From the NCBI RefSeq assembly GCF_963576615.1, contig NC_088710.1:2584001-2648000 (forward strand): a stretch of DNA of 64,000 bases. Reading direction: 5' to 3'. The notes under the pieces were generated by a model. It was not told the DNA's origin. It worked only from the letters and a program-made list of their open reading frames with translations, and did not search any database. Shown here one piece after another: positions 4,039-61,906 of the stretch. Position numbers and translations under genes: made by a program. The DNA comes from Watersipora subatra (Eukaryota; Bryozoa; Gymnolaemata; Cheilostomatida; Watersiporidae). Within the stretch, counting starts at the first letter, position 1; each line of letters starts with the position of its first letter.

Positions 4039-7000
4039 ATGGAGATGTTCTTTTCCGAATCCTTCTGGATTCCAAAAGGGTTCACGTGGAAAGATTATGA
4101 GAATAACGCAGAGGATGGTATATATATTCCTCAAACTAAGGACCTACTCTACTGTATTCCAACAGCTATAGTTGTATTCGTTGTCAGGAAATTATTTGAA
4201 AGGTTAGTAGAAGGTTATCTCGTTCTTTGTGTACTGCGAGCATTAGCCAGTTGTCTTCTAGACAGTGACAACAGTTAACAAGTTATCTGAAGAGGGCACA
4301 TGAGCCGCATAGGTTGAGTCACTTTGCAAGGTAAACAATGGCAGCAAGGGTGAGAACTGAAGTAAGTAGGTAGATGGATGGGGTGCTGAGATACTTGGAA
4401 GCTCTATATAGTTGGTACTATAAATTTGGACCTAGCCATGTGTTTTTTAGTCAATCAACACCTGATTTTCTTACAATTGTTAAAATATGCTATCAGTTTG
4501 CATAAGTTGCAAACGCAAGCTGGCAATTATGAATGATTATCCTTATCATTTGAGCTAGTTGTGTTATCTACATACCAGAGCAGAGCATGGTGAGGTTGTC
4601 TTACTTGTGATTTGGCCCTACTAGAAATGCTATATGCAATAAATATTTTATGATCACATTTTAAACATAACTGGGAACCACAAGTATAAACTTTCACAAA
4701 TTTTATCTTTTCAAAATTTTTACCATGCTGCCGATTAGACAATCACTCAACAACCGATTGGTCTGCTGGGTTAGAGACAGCATATATCTATTTATAATGA
4801 TAACATTCCTGGAATGCCATTATTTCTATATTTTGCAAGGTTATATAAAAGCCACTACATTGAGCAAGCTTGTTCAGCCTTTACATTACAGTTTGGGCTA
4901 ATTGCAATGGTATCTGATTAACTGTTTATGAGTACCACATGGTCTAGAAGTTTCTGCTTTAGAAACCTGTTTTCTATTTTAAAACCCCTGCTTTCAGAAA
5001 AGCAGTGGTTTTAAAACTGCACCATTTAGTTGAACATTTGAATTTTTTAACCATATATTAAGACAAGTTAAAAAGATAACGATGCCTGTTCCATGATTTT
5101 TTATAAGACAGGACCGAGTCGCATATGTTTAACTTTGCTTGCTGACATCTCTACCATCTACTAAACTTTCTGATTCTTGTTCTTGGAAAAGTTTTCTGTG
5201 TTTGAATCACAAGTTTTCTGAGTTGATTCAGGAACATATTCGACAGCTTTCTAAAGGCTGGCTCACACTATATCGCCGTATCTCGGCGTTGATGCCACAA
5301 TACTTCGGTGATCGTCGATGATAACGATGTTCACACTATGACAAACCTATCCCGTTTGCATCAGGAAATACTCCATGATGTAGTTTTCCCATTTTTCTTT
5401 TTGAATTTTCACGAAGAAACCTCTTTGTTTTCGCGTGCCGTAATTAAATGCTAGTCCCGCAGCGACTATCATAAACGGATAGAATAAATCATGCTGTTCG
5501 TGACTGCGAATTACTATGGCCGAAGTGGTTCACAATGTAAAGGTGGTCGCCGATGCTCGGCGAAATATCAGGAATGTTTGACAGCTGCAAACTTTCCCGA
5601 CGTGTCCACGTTGCTTCGTCGATGCCATCGGCTCACATAATCGACGATGAATGCCAAAAGGAAAACGCTGACAAACGGCGATATAGTGTGAACCAGCCTC
5701 AAGTCTTTGTCTCTATGTGATGCTTTGTGTTCTCCATTGTTTATATATTATTTTCATGAAGGGAAAGTCGAATATAGCAGTCAAATATGACAAACTATGA
5801 CAAAATATGTACAAACCATACAAACTCTTTACCTACCTTTTTTGCTTATGTTACAACAAAGAAGTACTATATGTTACAGGTTTATAGCGTATCCGTATGG
5901 ACTATATAGAAATATCTCAACAAAAGTACATAGATGTACCCCAAATGCTCAGTTAGAGTCCCTCTACAAGAGGCACCCCAATCCTACAGAGGCTCAACTT
6001 AATGTGAGTACAAGATTAACTTTAGTATGGTACCTGCTTCTAAATGAAACACAGTTTATGGCTGGTCAGAGCGTAAGACTGTCATTATGTAGGACCTGCT
6101 TTTAGATGGAACACAGTCTATGAGTGGTCAGAGGATAATATTGTCATTTGAGTAAGGTTTCTTTTTAGATGGGACACAGTCTATGTCTGGTCAGAGGATA
6201 ATATTGTCATTTGAGTAAGGTTTGCTTTTTGATGGGACACAGTCCATGTCTGGTCAGAGGATAATATTGTCATTTGAGGAAGGTTTCCTTTTAGATGGGA
6301 CACAGTCTATGTCTGGTCAGAGGATAATATTGTCATTTGATTGAGGTTTTCTTTTAGATGGGACACAGTCTATCACTATGTTTCCATAGTGCGCAGTACT
6401 GCGAAGCAGCCCCCTCCGAAGTCGAGGGGAGTGTACGTTTCCATGCTGCGCAGTGGTTTTCAGCAAATTAGCCAGAGAAGAGAAATTGTATAAATCGAAT
6501 CGCCTGATGGAAAAATAGAATCGATCACGGATACCGAATGTCAAAACGGTCTTTTTTATGATTCTGTCGTCATTATACTTTTATTTACAATACACATTCA
6601 CAAGTTTTTACAAACCTTAACACACTCTTTGCAAAGTAATATATTTTTAATAAGTATTTTTAAGTAATATATTACTTAAACGTTAATTTATGACTTGCCA
6701 CCTATTTTTCGAAAAGTGTTGGCATCGATAACAAAGTCCAGGAAAGTAATCACCTCATCATCCTCGTGAATGCAGACCATAATTAAATTTAGGTGAAAGA
6801 AGATCGGAAGAATAGAAAAAACAAGATTAGCAGGACAACCTTTGTACTAGTTTATGGCCCTCGAAGAATCCGTCTCCACGGCATGACAGCTATGCGCAGC
6901 CACTGCGCAGTCGTTGTTTCCTTGCTGCGAATTTGCACTGGCTTCGCACTGATCAGTGCGCAGTGATTTCAGTGCAAAGACGCCGTTTCCATGATTCGGA

Positions 7001-10000: not shown

Positions 10001-13000
10001 ACAAAGAAAAATACTTTCTTTTAAAATCAACTCAAATTTGATGCAACCACATCTTTAAAACCGTTTCTATGCTAAACAGGAAGTACTGAAAAATGGCGTC
10101 CAATAAAAGTAATCGATTCTTTTTTGCCGATTTTAAAGATAACTCGGACATTTTAGACACTTAATGAGTACTCTAGTATTCCAACTGCTGTTGAAAGTAA
10201 AGGGAATGACGATAGTATTTTCCTAGCAATTTTTATAAGATTACTATAAGATTTAATTATATGAATAGTTATTCAAATTTACAAGAACGGCGTATATAGT
10301 GTCCGATGGTGTGCCAGTGTTATTATTTTTGCAAAAGATTTTGTTGGTGATACTACGGCTGTGCCCAAAATCGCGATACTACCAAGCCGATTTTAATATG
10401 TACGAAATTAAGAATAAGTAATACATTTTCTGATAGATATACAGCTATTTCGATGACAGCCAGCTAAAATATTTTTAGATTTTTAAATTCAGCATAATTT
10501 TTTGTATATAAATACAGAAATCTAAATAAATATCACAACTTTTTGATATTGGTTGCTATGATGTTTTGAAATGTAAAAAAAATTGTGCATTGGTTTTCGT
10601 TTCTCAAACTTTAACACCAGTTTCCTCAGAACTATGTTTTCGCACTAATGGTGAACGTGCATTCGGTTTATTGACCATAAAATCTGCTGTAATTAAGCAA
10701 GAATCAAAATTCCTTTTGCCAAATAACTGTGAGAACTTTTTTCTGCTAGCGTAAAATACTCCAAATTTCACACACCCGACTTAACCATGGTTTCTGAGAA
10801 CATGACCCAATTTAGAAAAACTGCAATAGAAATACCCAACACTATAGTAACATAGAGTAGCTACAATAGAGGTATCTATCACTGTGGTAACATAGAGTAG
10901 CTACAATAGAGGTATCTATTACCATGGTAACATAGATTAATAACAATAGGGATACTCATGAACTACAATAGACATCCCAAACAAGCATGCAAGACTCAAT
11001 GAGACAATAGCTCAGCACTCCTAACTTCTTTCATCAAATAACAATATTCCATGGTCAAGGGGATATTGTCTTTTTATGGGTAGTTCTCTTAGTCTCGTAA
11101 TTGTATTTTAATCATATATGTGTTTTGTTACAACAACATCAAAGAACTCTCTCATTCATATTCTCTTAATGAGATGATCAGTTGCTGTCTGGACATCCTG
11201 AGTTCATATGACCTGCTGCCAAAGTCAGCTAGACTGGCAGCTCACCCGCTCCGTTGTAGTTGGTCCTTACTTTTATTGAACTCTCTCTTCATCATCATAT
11301 TCTCCCATCTTCTTGAGTTGTAACACTTTTACGACCTGAGAAGACTTTCATTTACATATTTTATAACTTTGCGTATTATCTGCATGTACAATCTATAATG
11401 AGAGCATCTCAAAAGATCTTTGCTGTGTTTTTAAACTACCTTCTTACTTCTTCAGTAGCTTCACTAAATTCAACTTTTATATTTAAAATATTCTTTAATA
11501 GTCTCTCTTCTATATATGAAATTTATTTGAGTAGTTTCTCTTTTATAGAATCCAATTTAGCAGTTTCCTTTTATACATAGAACATACTACTTGAGTAGAT
11601 TATATTTTATATATGGAATCTAATTTAGCAGTTTCTCTTTTATACATAGAACCTACTTGAGTAGTTTCTCTTCTATATATGGAATCTGATTTAGCAGTTC
11701 TCTTTTATACATAGAACGTACTTGAATAGTTTCCCTTATATATATGGAATCTAATTTAGCAGTTTCTCTTTCATACATAGAACCTACTTGAGTAGTTTCT
11801 CTTTTATATATAGAATCCAATTTAGCAGTTTCTCTTTTATACATAGAACACACTTTAGTAGTTTCTCTTTTATATATGTAATCTCATTTAGCAGTTCTCT
11901 TTTATACATAGAACGTACTTGAATAGTTTCCCTTATATATATGGAATCTAATTTAGCAGTTTCTCTTTCATACATAGAACCTACTTGAGTAGTTTCTCTT
12001 TTATATATAGAATCCAATTTAGCAGTTTCTCTTTTATACATAGAACACACTTTAGTAGTTTCTCTTTTATATATAGAATCCAATTTAGCAGTTTCTCTTT
12101 TATACATAGAACACACTTTAGTAGTTTCTCTTTTATATATGGAATCTGATTTAGCAGTTCTCTTTTATACATAGAACGTACTTGAATAGTTTCCCTTATA
12201 TATATGGAATCTAATTTAGCAGTTTCTCTTTCATACATAGAACCTACTTGAGTAGTTTCTCTTTTATATATAGAATCCAATTTAGCAGTTTCTCTTTTAT
12301 ACATAGAACACACTTTAGTAGTTTCTCTTTTATATATGTAATCTGATTTAGCAGTTCTCTTTTATACATAGAACGTACTTGAATAGTTTCTCTTTTATAT
12401 ATAGAATCTAATTTAGCAGTTTCTCTTTTGTACATAGAACCTACTTGAGTGGTTTCTCCTTTATAATTAGAAGAACCTTCTATCGTAGTTTCTCTTTTAT
12501 ATGTAGAATTTATTTGAGCAGTCTCTTTTGTCGAGATGGTCAAGACAATTAGGTTCTTATGCATGTACAGTATTAACATTTTTTGAACCAGACATGATGA
12601 GCTCCAAGACTGTTGTTTTTTCCGTATTCAGACCATTTGATAATTTGATAAGTAGAGAATAGCGCAGCATAGAGTAGGTACAATTCTGTTGCAGACATTT
12701 AATAGAGAAACAAACATTCCTGTTCGATCTATACAAAGATGGCTGCGACGACGACGAAATCAATCTCGACCAACAGCCATGGCCAAATTTACGGAGACAG
12801 CGTAAGGATTTTGCTATGACGGTTTGATGCAATTGAACACTATTTCAGAGTTGGCTTTTCACTGAGGAGACAACTTGACCATTATAGATGAGGAACATTG
12901 GCCTGAAGTATTAAGTTTGCTTTTAGTTGGAGAGGTACTTACTATTTAGCTATACTGATCTATGGACTTGTTGTGCTTTGGGACAAGCCATGGTTTAAGG

Positions 13001-16000
13001 AGCCCAAACAATGCTGGCTGGACAATTTTCCTCGGCAGGTGAGTTTGTAAAACTATAGTGAGGCCTTCGCATTTGTGTCAAATAAAATCAAATAGTTATC
13101 GAGTATGTCAATCGCTTTTCAGTCAGGTCATGAGCAGGAGCAGGACTTTTTTGGTTGAATTTTAATCTTACTACCAATTTTTGCAAAAGGAGATGAAAAT
13201 GAGCACTCACCTTGTATTTGCATCTATTTATAGCACACACCTTGTATTTGTATCTATTTATAGCATACATCTTGTATTTGTATCTATTTATAGTACACAC
13301 CTTGTATTGCATCTATTTATAGCACACACCTTGTATTTGTAGCTTTTTATATCACACACTTTGTACAGTCAAACATGGATAACTCGCCCTCGGATAGCTC
13401 GAACACATGGTTAACTTGGACGGTTTTTTTGTCCGTTCCCAGGTAATGGTAAATTGCTTTAGATAACTCGACCTCAACTTTGTTAACTCGAACAGTTTTT
13501 GCCCAATGGCTACCGAAACTGTTGTTATCGCTTTAAAAAATCACTTTATTCCAAGTCATAGAGGTAAACCTCAACTTTTCGTACTTCATAGGCGTCGTTA
13601 TTACCATCATCAGCGAAATATTTTTGTCAACGACTTTTCTAAAGGTTTGGCGAAATTTGATTTTTACCAAACATCCGCTTAGCGATGGCCCTTCGGACGC
13701 AAGGAAAAGTGAGGTAACCTTCACATAAACTTCAAGAAAAATTGGTAAAATTGATCTTGGTTAAAAGGCTCAAAAGAAAAAGATGTATTTTCTTCTGAGC
13801 ATTTCAACAGCGATCAGGTTTTGCCAATTTTAATCTAAAAAACGTTCTGGCAATAACATCACCTCAAACAACAAACCAATCTCAAGTGATAGAAAAATCT
13901 CTATACTTTTTGATAAAAAATATTTTTAAACTTTATATTAAAAGCATTTAATTTGAAACAAGCTATTTATGCTTGTGATTTATATTACATTTTGTATATG
14001 TACATGTATGTACTAATAAATAAATAAATACATGGACTTGTGACAGTGCTCCGATAACTTGAATGCTCTGATAACTCGAACACTTTCGCTCGGTCCCATG
14101 AAGTTTGAGTTATCCATGTTTGAATGTATTTGTATCTATTTATAGCACATACCTCGTATTTGCTTCTATATATAGCCCACCTTGCATGTGCATCTATTTA
14201 TAGCACATGCCTTGTATTTACATCTATTTATAGCACACACCTTGCATTTGCATCTATTTATAGCCCACCTCGCAATTGCATCTATTTTTAGCACACGCCG
14301 GACTCCATATTCTGGTACTATATGATCTCTCTTGGCTTCTACCTCACTCTTCTCTTCTCCCAGTTTGTAGACGTCAAAAGAAAGGTAAAGATCTCTTTTT
14401 AATTGTATTTGCTAGTCTGTAGCTTATACCCAGGTTCTACTATGGGAATTTTCGATGAAGGAAAAGAAAACAGTAAAACACAATCATGGAACGTTTTAGA
14501 ATATGAAACTCTATACAAAATATATTATCATAATGATTATAAATTTTATTAGGTATTTGTGTAATTTCTTGAAGTCAAGCAGTTTTAGATCAACTGCCTC
14601 CAGTAAAGTTACCCTCAGTATAACTATCCCCGCAACAGCTGTGTCCTGACAATTGCCCATCGAAAGACAGTTCTTCCAGCAGGACAACAGCCTTTTGGAT
14701 AATCACGCTCTCTTTCTTAAAGATTGACTTGCAACAACATTGACATTACAGTTGTTTGGTATCAAAAGGTTCACCATGCTTTACTCGGCTGTGTTTTAGG
14801 TACGAAATATCTGGAAATGTGATTACAAGCTCTTAAAAGCTCAAAAACAAACAGTTAATCGCTGCCATCATGAAACAGCCGTAGATTAGAATCTCTTTCC
14901 AAAACGGCTCAAATAGGACGGAGTTGAACAAGATGGCTTCTGTTTACACTTTCATGCAACCTCATTTGTCGAAATATTTTCACAAATATACTTCACGAAT
15001 TCGATAAAACCATGTCTATTGTCTTCACGCATCTGTTTCATCATCATTGTAATGCTGTCACTTTGAGCCCTGATATCTCAAAACCTACCGTGAAAATTCA
15101 TTTAATTTTTTAACCTTAGCTCGAAGGAGTGCATGTCATCCTCTGATAAACATGACGAGTCTGTTGGTCACCTGTGATAGTCGAAAAACGCTGCAGGAAT
15201 TATTCGCGCTGTTTGGCAGGAAGTATGGGTCACATGATCAGGTTACGACTAGACGATTAGACCAAGCTGAAACGAAGTTGTAACCTAGCGAGCATCTATA
15301 TTTGGTAAGGGCTCTTTGGTAAAGCCTGAAGTGTTTGTCATAAACTAGTGTTACAAAACGTTTTATATTGAGCCTTTAATTGGCCTTTCAATTCACATGA
15401 TAACATCACGTGTTAAAACAATAACCAAATAGATTGACTACGTCAGAGAAATAAACTGATTCCAATCTACGGCAGTTTCGTGATGACGGCGATTAACTGT
15501 TCGTTTTTGAACTTTTAAGAGCTTGTAATCACGTTTCCACATATTTTGCACCTGCAACACAGCAGAGTAAAACATGGTGAATCTTTTGATACCAAATAAC
15601 TGTAATCTGAATTTTGTTGCAAGTCAACCTTTAAGCCATAAAGCTCAAAAACACCAACGTTTATTTAACTAATTTATTTTTAAAAACTTTCCAATGCAAT
15701 AAAAATGTTATCTAGCCTAAGTCTGGAGCCAAATAAATGATTGTTCTCAAAGTTATAACAGCAATTAAAAAGAATATAACTATCTACTGAAACCATAAAT
15801 TGTATGTTATGTATGTATCTCATAAAGTCTAGCTAATGAAGGCTTTCAAACTCCATGATGGGTGCTCCTTGTGTGTCTAAATACCGATGAAATGATTATT
15901 GGTAAATAAAGGGCTTTTAATTTTTCTGTTTGTTCTAAATTGTTATTGAACTTTGCACAGCAAATAAATATTTTAAGCTTATTATTTAAAAGAGGAGAAG

Positions 16001-19000
16001 TTTTTCAGATACCAAGTTAAGTATGCAGACTACTGGAATCGTGACAGAACCTCACAGGATTTTGGTCTCCCGTTGAAGTCTGATAAGTTTCATGCATTTA
16101 TGATATTTTCAAGTACTTTTTTCCAGTGTCACAAGTCTACAAAGAGAATTGAAGAAAATTTTTGTTGGTGCATTTTAGGACTTCTGGGAACAATTTATTC
16201 ACCATCTGACTACAATATTCTTGATGACATTCTCATGGATGTGTAACTTCACTCGAGTCGGCTCCCTTGTGCTCTGCATACACGATATGGTTGATTGGAT
16301 GTTAGAGTTTGCCAAACTTAACAGATATCTTAACAACACACGACTTTGCGACTTCCTGTTTGGGTTGTTCACTATCAGCTGGTTCATAACTCGACTAGTC
16401 ATGTTTCCATACTTGTAAGTTATCCTCTCCTTTTTCTCTGGCGGGATGGCTACTGTAAAACCTCCATTTGCGCGCTATGGTGTTGTATTTTCAACCCTTC
16501 TTTCGTGGCATTCTATTAAAAGTGACACTCAAATAAAGGTAGAACTCAAATAGAAGTTTTACGGTATTTTGGCTGATGTTTTAATAAACTGAGGTTCACT
16601 AAAGGGCTTCAAGCTAAACGCGTTGTCTAATCCATTATTTGCACTGATGAAACATTAGCTAACAAGGATACACATTCCAGCCGTCTTTTGCCATTTTTAT
16701 TGTCTACACTTACCCTTACACTTACTTATCTCTTGTGCTGTGAGACATCATCAGGTCTATTACCTACTTATCTGCACAATTATTCCACAATCTGGCAAGG
16801 TGATGGAATGGTGCAGGTGCTAAAATGTGGATCGATGAAGCAGACCATCATGAGTTCAAACCTTATGTGAGGCAATCTTTTCCCTAAAATCAAAACGTGG
16901 CTTCAGACCAGTATATCTTGTCAGGAATCGTCAGACCTTGGCATAATAAAGTCTTTGTCTATTTGAGGTATTTTGTTACGCATGGTCTAGATGTTGTTAG
17001 TCTAATGTTGTTAGTCATTTTTATTATTTTTCAAGTGAGAAGAATTCAGTGATGACTAAAGGTTTTATAACTATTTGAGTGTGACTTTTGCAAAATAGCG
17101 GTAAAAATCTAAGGATTTCAAATCGCTTAGCAATTACCTCAAATCTGAACGTATTACATTATGCCTAGATTCGAGGTTTTCCGGTGCATGATGCACTGCT
17201 TCAGACAGTCGGACACGATTTTTATTACATTAAAGATTATATTATTATATTATATTATTATAGTAACAGCTAAATGAATGCACGGCGTTGCAGGGTAATA
17301 AAATAATTACCCAATGAGCTTGAGTAACTTACCTGGTAAGCTTGTAACTTAAAAGTCTTGACTAGAATCAAAACTACATGTAAAGTTATGTTAATAATAA
17401 TTACTTTTCGCGTAAGAAAGAAGCATGCTAATTAACATAAGTGCTTTAAACATGAGTATTTTAACTGATGTAGTGAATATGAACACGATTAATCCAGGGC
17501 AACTCAAGTAGAGTATGCGGCTTAATGGGTGAGTTTGGCACCTCTAAAATAGGAGGTCTCGAGTTCAAATCCAATACAAAGTGCATTTTCAGTGTTAAAT
17601 CTTTATCGCTAAAACAGCTAGGCAAACAACAAACAGTGCAGTTTATATAGTTGGATTTATAATATATAATAATTTATTAGAACACAAAAATGTGCTCATT
17701 TCTAGTCAAATTACCTAAATCGATGTAAACACACTTTGCCCTAATTCAGACCTAGTTCCAACATCATTGATAGCGTTTCATCACAGCATTATGCGTGCCA
17801 TGGCTTGCCTCAAGCAAAGCACCTATATGAAGACAGCAGAACAGCGAATATTCACACAGCCTGCTCACATGTAAGCCGAATTGGTACCACTGAGGGAGTC
17901 ATATGAGAAAGACACGTTTAGTTACTTTTGAATTAATCGACCATCAAGCTACTCCAGGAAGATGCACCGCTAGTCGACGGCGTTAAAAAAGTAAATGGTG
18001 CACACTATTGCTCTTTATTTTCTGCAGCAGTTTTGTTGACAGCCCTATTCCATTTTGATAATTTCGAATATTTTAATAATTTCATTTTTATAATTATACT
18101 TATTAAAAAGTATCGGTGCTAAGTTACTGTTATAAGAAACATCGCAAGGCATATTCGTCTGCAAAGCGTAATAATTACAATCAGATTACAGTATCTGTTT
18201 TTATATGTCCTCACATAAGTTTTGAATAGCAGCTCACTTCTTGTGAATTTCTCAACTAGTATCTCAGTCTAATACTTGCTAGTTGGCGCCTTGTCATGAC
18301 TTTGAAAGTTGACTTGCAACAAAATTCACACTACAGTTATTTGGTATCAAAAGATTCACTATGTCTTACTCTGATGTGTTTTAGGTGCAAAATATTTGGA
18401 AATGTGATTACAAGCTCTTGAAAGCTCAAAAACGAAGTTAATTGCAGCCATCATGAAAACACCATAGGTTGGAATACCTTTATTTCGATGACGTACTCAA
18501 CTCGACGTGGTTATTGTTTCGACACGTGATGTTATCACGTGAATTGAAAGGCCAATAAAAGGCTCAATATAAAACATCTCGTAGCACTAGTTTATGACAA
18601 ACACTTTGGGTTCTACCAGAAAGCCAGTATCAAATATAGATGCTTGCTACTTTACAGTTTCATTCCAGCTTGATGTAATCATCTAGTCGCAATCTGATCA
18701 TGTGATCCATACATCTTGCCAAATGGTGCGAACAATTTCTGCAGCATTTTTCGACTATCACAGGTGACCAACAGGCTCCTCATGTTTATCGGAGAATGAT
18801 ATGCACTCTTTCGAGCTAAGGTCAAAAAAATAAATTAATTTTTAGGCTAGGTTTTGAGATATCAGTGCTCAAAGTGACAGCATTACAATGATGTGAAATA
18901 GATGCAAAAAGGACAATAGATATGGTTTTGATGAATGCGTGAACACCTACAACATAGCAGAGTGAGACATGGTGAACCTTTTGATACCAAATAACTATAA

Positions 19001-32803: not shown

Positions 32804-47382
<14,579 letters not shown>

Positions 47383-49046: not shown

Positions 49047-61906
<12,860 letters not shown>

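Follow-up and report, generated by a model that had tools for sequence, protein, structure and literature searches.

The original mirage paper is reportedly that of Canestro et al. (2002), and introns are said to have been traced to tandem arrays by Zhuo et al. (2007). In the excerpts of two later articles on which this account draws, mirages are tandem repeats lying across exon-intron boundaries, found in amphioxus Adh3 and also in globins, troponin C and PGBD5, and the amphioxus cases are stated not to disturb regular splicing (PMC3087553, PMC3902484). It has been suggested that new introns may come from junction-spanning repeats (PMC3087553, excerpt), and the duplicated splice signals involved in intron gain by tandem duplication in Drosophila have been described as raw material for new introns (PMC2891723, excerpt). 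In human segmental duplications, variable tandem repeats with units averaging 30 bp lie, in some cases, at exon-intron boundaries and can yield new splicing patterns (PMC2812944, excerpt). Repeats that span a junction constitute natural tests of how the spliceosome chooses among nearly equal acceptors.

The window analysed here is a stretch of 64,000 nucleotides (C3:2584001-2648000) of a genome of 783.7 Mb in 239 contigs. It holds a ceramide synthase gene on the plus strand (gene A), as well as a Ras gene on the minus strand (52179-61906) with seven located coding exons. The spliced protein of gene A matches PDB 8qz6 (ceramide synthase 6, isoform 2) with an E value of 1e-46 and carries a Pfam TLC domain (E 1.2e-41). 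Its exons were placed by tblastn, with a human CERS6 query sequence, and by splice context; no frame break occurs across the located exons 1-7 (exon 8 is unlocated). A 30-bp minisatellite (13202-14299) crosses the 3' splice site of exon 5 and covers eight exonic bases. The features concerned are the following, with the basis of each in brackets.

12927 to 13038, plus strand: ceramide synthase exon 4, ending in NFPRQ at the exon border (tblastn with the human CERS6 sequence, splice context)
13202 to 13365, plus strand: left block of the array, units 0-4 and the first half of unit 5 (Tandem Repeats Finder, unit split, decoy list)
13366 to 14126, no strand assigned: 761-bp element with terminal inverted repeats and TA on each side, inserted in unit 5 (ends, TA, empty site)
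14127 to 14291, plus strand: right block of the array, second half of unit 5 and units 6-10 (Tandem Repeats Finder, unit split, decoy list)
14290 to 14291, plus strand: true acceptor AG of intron 4, TCTATTTTTAG (splice context, acceptor matrix)
14292 to 14299, plus strand: exonic portion of the last partial unit, CACACGCC, comprising codon H, codon T and two bases of codon P (seven of eight bases equal to the unit)
14292 to 14384, plus strand: ceramide synthase exon 5, 93 bp, phase 0, HTPDSIFWYYMISLGFYLTLLFSQFVDVKRK (protein match, tblastn, splice context, paralogs)
16179 to 16414, plus strand: ceramide synthase exon 6 (protein match, tblastn, splice context)

Without the insert, the array measures 335 bp, or 11 units plus 10 bp, with eight units of 30 bp, one of 29 bp and two of 28 bp; units 7 and 10 have 28-bp variants in common. 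Tandem Repeats Finder returned it as two blocks, 13202-13365 and 14125-14299, the latter being the longest row. The border, GCATCTATTTTTAG/CACACGCC (a slash marks the exon-intron border throughout), departs from the most frequent form of the unit at 2 of 22 bases, exactly the 20 of 22 that the earlier sequence-only reading of this DNA had given. Upstream of the real acceptor, nine intact acceptor copies (hereafter decoys) stand at unit borders, with exon starts at 13234, 13264, 13294 and 13323 in the left block and at 14146, 14176, 14204, 14234 and 14264 in the right block. One more copy, at the start of unit 5, is destroyed, its AG having been lost (TATATC), so that the "about a dozen" copies of that reading come down to nine intact and one destroyed. 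Eight decoys end in TTTATAG and one in TATATAG. Three further AGs within the listed interval (13204, 13343 and 13369) are not unit-border copies; the second is new in unit 4, and the third lies within the inserted element. The same reading had the array run through the splice site, which is true of eight exonic bases, but the implied continuity is not, since 761 bp of the interval are the insert. It had also placed H170-T171-P172 inside the array: H-T-P are indeed codons 1-3 of exon 5, but the last base of the P codon falls outside, and the H is residue 168 when counted from MFF (170 with an ATG two codons upstream).

A count by eye gives 19 matches among the 21 bases of the inserted element's inverted ends, and removing the 761 bp together with one TA restores one perfect 30-bp unit; the empty site being an intact unit, unit 5 is older than the insertion. 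A TA target duplication is characteristic of Tc1/mariner-like elements, and terminal inverted repeats being present as well, the insert at 13366-14126 is tentatively assigned to that class. A dispersed element lies in intron 5 as two inverted halves (14720-14989 and 15458-15631), with relatives in locus L005; the start of locus L021, upstream of exon 5 of gene C (see below), is similar to it by eye.

This architecture agrees with that of the described mirages in several respects, as far as the excerpts go. As in Adh3, BflGb6, BflGb9, troponin C and PGBD5, minisatellite-like repeats lie across an exon-intron boundary, and on the acceptor side, as in amphioxus BflGb6; many mirage units retain AG/GT signals, as gene A keeps nine upstream acceptor copies; and the unit lengths of the Adh3 mirage (10-72 bp) bracket the 30 bp found here (PMC3087553, PMC3902484). 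The units of gene A span the junction together with exonic bases, and those upstream keep splice signals. The array is genuine and belongs to a kind of repeat already on record, and its paralogs make an informative set.

A genome search with exons 5-6 returned six matches, corresponding to three genes, namely gene A and two paralogs. Paralog C (C3:59082340) has an exon 5 of 93 bp with the same start codon (Q/HVKPAVFWYY) and an ordinary acceptor preceded by CTTGTACATGTTACAG; a repeat array was looked for in its sequence at the exon 5 junction, and none is there. Paralog B is inverted on the same contig as gene A; its exon 5 lies some 47 kb before the window begins, and its 414-bp intron 4 ends in exactly two junction copies (Tandem Repeats Finder, 30 bp x 2.0). 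Intact decoys, therefore, number zero in C, one in B and nine in A, within one genome. The real borders of A and B both read TTTTTAG, whereas all decoys (nine in A, one in B) end in ATAG. The pair of copies in B best matches units 0-1 of A (56/60), followed by units 1-2 and 2-3 (54/60 each), compared with 51/60 for units 9-10. At the other end of exon 5 of gene B (L005:5774-5866), the codon adjoining the donor is ACG (T), giving the context ACG/GTGGGT, as opposed to AAG (K) in A and C.

An unrepeated, a twofold and an elevenfold junction in one genome offer a built-in comparison for acceptor choice and intron origin. Unlike the amphioxus mirages, the array lies in a ceramide synthase gene whose family includes members with zero, one and nine intact decoys, and it is broken by a transposon-like element. 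A report of a mirage in a ceramide synthase gene was not found in the literature searches, which were not keyed to that gene name. The human boundary repeats, according to the excerpt seen, alter the transcript, whereas exon 5 of gene A has the length and start of that of the array-free paralog (PMC2812944). Unlike intron gain by tandem duplication, gene A shows no new intron.

Does the overlap with exon 5 go beyond coincidence? In the register fixed by the array, the first eight exonic bases agree with the unit at seven positions (P about 4e-4 to 6e-4), and the following 22 exonic bases match it at 6, so that the likeness to the array ends after eight bases. The 21-mer CATCTATTTATAGCACACACC, with up to three mismatches, occurs nine times in the window, including the border, all within the array, and zero occurrences are expected in shuffled sequence. 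According to one alternative, some arrays in a minisatellite-rich genome must end at a splice site, and the eight exonic bases would be coincidental or a small later overwrite. This draws on the abundance of local repeats in introns (94 of 744 intron words 60-400 bp away from junctions are locally repeated), on array ends within 12 bp of junctions being only marginally above the within-intron expectation (p 0.055), and on the shortness of the overlap. It has to contend with the register match and with the two-copy array of paralog B, which shows the same overlap, and we consider it unlikely; it concerns the frequency of such cases more than the nature of this one, and is partly compatible with the explanation preferred here. 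Given the seven matching bases and the duplicated junction of paralog B, the overlap is treated as real and not due to chance.

Two directions of change had been offered for the overlap, either the array arising by copying of the border or the border being captured from the array. The array-free junction of C and the two-copy junction of B favour the former, and the exon 5 border looks older than the repeat, because C shares the exon start codon without having an array. Under the latter, the last unit would have taken over as 3' splice site after loss of an earlier acceptor, and the protein would have gained H-T-P. The array does contain the acceptor and the greater part of three codons, and the first codons are unconserved (HVK in C, and PLT in CerS6 where exon 5 of gene A begins HTP). 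Nevertheless, C shares the phase-0 position, the 93-bp exon and the first residue H, and the alignment of gene A with CerS6 is free of gaps from the exon 5 border to the WYY/YYY motif. With exon start and length identical in C, capture as a splice-site shift is unsupported, and we regard it as highly improbable. Codons 2-3, which differ between C (HVK) and A (HTP), may have been rewritten by the array.

Taken together, the minisatellite quite probably began as a tandem duplication of a 3' splice junction already in place, and is a repeat of the mirage kind. The simplest history would lead from a single junction (as in C) through one duplication (as in B) to expansion in A and, finally, insertion of the element. 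Two 10-mers, the intronic AGCACTCACC and the border sequence AG/CACACGCC, are almost identical and lie 20 bp from each other, and slippage between them could have produced the first duplication. A published model of array origin is said to expect near-identical short bounding sequences, and the two 10-mers bounding the array of gene A are consistent with it, without being diagnostic. Microhomology was also considered as proof of origin and rejected: AGCACxCxCC stands at both ends of the array, but such ends are found wherever the copy number is fractional. The intronic copy would then have been amplified, as suggested by the ATAG endings of all decoys as opposed to TTTTTAG at both real borders. 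At a later stage, the three-unit block adjoining the exon may have duplicated along with the border. The block formed by units 6, 7 and the head of 8 agrees with that formed by units 9, 10 and the border at 58 of 68 aligned bases, a hint that one later block duplication included the border itself, although other registers do almost as well (58/70). The TA-target element would have landed in unit 5 afterwards. The real acceptor was presumably kept by selection on the protein, and the decoys have no evident function.

The unit variants bear less directly on this history. The border-proximal units are the most diverged, and when the decoys are taken in order of approach to the border, their mismatches to it (of 22 bases) number 2, 5, 4, 2, 4, 7, 2, 3 and 4; ordering the variants outward from the border, as the sequence-only reading had proposed, thus reveals no gradient of likeness. 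CpG decay was rejected as an indicator of polarity: the border of A has CG where the units have CA or TG, but the border of B has CA, so that the G is likelier derived in A. Unit 8 (TG) and the border of A have this G in common, which is a hint only. The order C, B, A is deduced from paralogs within one genome, and B could have shrunk from a longer array. Moreover, the array may have moved between A and B instead of being inherited in parallel, since exon 5 of these two genes is a probable patch of gene conversion.

The evidence for this patch comes from third codon positions. In exon 5, 5 of 31 differ between A and B, whereas in the rest of the coding sequence compared (exons 4 and 6, and parts of exons 1-3 and 7) the count is 121 of 259 (Fisher p about 0.001, or about 0.005 when only silent changes are counted). 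Exon 2 is low as well (window 5880-6003 vs L011/L005; 4/40 third positions differ), which would make any conversion patchy and not a special property of the array. Between A and C, the corresponding counts are 13 of 31 (exon 5) and 52 of 78 (exon 6), and exon 5 may, therefore, be somewhat slower-evolving in general. The similarity of A and B in exon 5 is probably due to patchy gene conversion, although this is not proven. A broader reading, in which a growth series (zero, one and nine decoys) was combined with conversion between inverted paralogs carrying the repeat along with the exon, such that repeated junctions both arise from and feed exchange, is possible but doubtful.

Whether the decoys could be used in splicing was judged with an acceptor matrix built from the window's own acceptors (18 of 19, the YDJC one being dropped). 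The nine decoys score from -3.8 to +0.8 and the real site -0.4, the leave-one-out range of the 18 real acceptors being -3.5 to 9.7; the highest-scoring decoy is the nearest one, 28 bases upstream. The other AGs score -12.4 (13204), +0.4 (13343) and -4.2 (13369). As the scores overlap, the sequence around the AG cannot separate the decoys from the real site. All nine decoys lead to a premature stop, seven in the retained intron, one in exon 5 and one, following a 28-nt shift, in exon 6, and for five of them the stop is the TAG of the next unit's acceptor, nine codons on. Such similar scores, together with stops from every decoy, might be expected of a splicing switch that lowers protein level through transcripts subject to nonsense-mediated decay. 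The amphioxus cases, however, are reported, in the excerpts, to leave regular splicing undisturbed (PMC3087553, PMC3902484), and intact decoys numbering zero, one or nine among the paralogs argue against a conserved switch. We find such a switch very unlikely, and, with all nine decoys giving premature stops, functional decoy use is itself unlikely. The array looks like a hazard tolerated by the gene, with no evident function.

The sequence-only reading had generalized from this locus to splice junctions as seeds of minisatellites, which would be a new rule of genome evolution if true; the present sample gives no support for it. As raw counts from a small sample, 2 of 93 junctions are locally duplicated, compared with 94 of 744 intronic control words (at least 18 of 24 bases matching), and both duplicated junctions are the homologous exon 5 acceptors of A and B. 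The control words are non-independent and some may touch exons, and the 10 exonic bases included in the 93 junction words favour depletion. The comparison restricted to intron bases, counted in the same manner, gives 3 of 45 intron-end 18-mers with a local copy (at least 15 of 18 bases matching), compared with 60 of 450 controls. The junction sample includes 23 of 30 myosin loci (of 75 myosin matches, 30 have loci), with borders set by a simple AG/GT rule near the match ends; the borders of the other seven (L030, L034, L035, L039, L043, L047 and L049) could not be pinned, and these were dropped. Among the 60 putative exon edges of all 30 myosin loci, none lies inside an array, the nearest array being 13 bp off (L045).

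The main result in favour of such seeding is that array ends lie somewhat closer to junctions than expected from a within-intron null. Of 29 arrays, 3 end within 12 bp of a junction (0.91 expected, p 0.055) and 9 within 100 bp (4.4 expected, p 0.012), with p values of 0.17 at 25 bp and 0.024 at 50 bp. When two long uncertain introns are excluded (18 arrays), p is 0.04, 0.13, 0.18 and 0.06 at 12, 25, 50 and 100 bp, respectively. Under a uniform null with 42 junctions and 39 arrays, the window junction lists being hand-made and incomplete for YDJC, the number of junctions no more than 12 bp from an array is 3, where 0.54 would be expected (p 0.015), and at 100 bp it is 10, compared with 3.28 (p 0.002); if the arrays are limited to those scoring at least 150, 2 junctions fall within 12 bp (0.33 expected, p 0.04). 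Dense intronic minisatellites and selection against disturbance of exons explain these data without a seeding rule. The parallel that had been drawn with ICA1 is weak. Its exon (34668-34790) lies between two arrays, one (34327-34660) stopping 8 bp before the acceptor and the other (34799-34931) beginning 9 bp past the donor, and the best local copy of the intron end matches at 13 of 18 bases.

A second clear acceptor duplication in this gene pair, outside the window, is found at exon 6 of gene B, where about three copies of a 64-bp unit run up to the AG and stop precisely there. The final 18 bases of the intron recur twice without mismatch farther upstream, once at -134 by the scripted comparison and once as read from the printed sequence.

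L005:3191-3395, read on the minus strand: 64-bp repeat upstream of exon 6 of gene B (printed sequence)

In intron 2 of the ceramide synthase gene in the window, a 66-bp minisatellite (11527-12472) ends 223 bp before the exon, and acceptor-like motifs, such as TTTCTCTTTTATACATAG and TTTCTCTTTTATATATAG, can be seen by eye in its unit.
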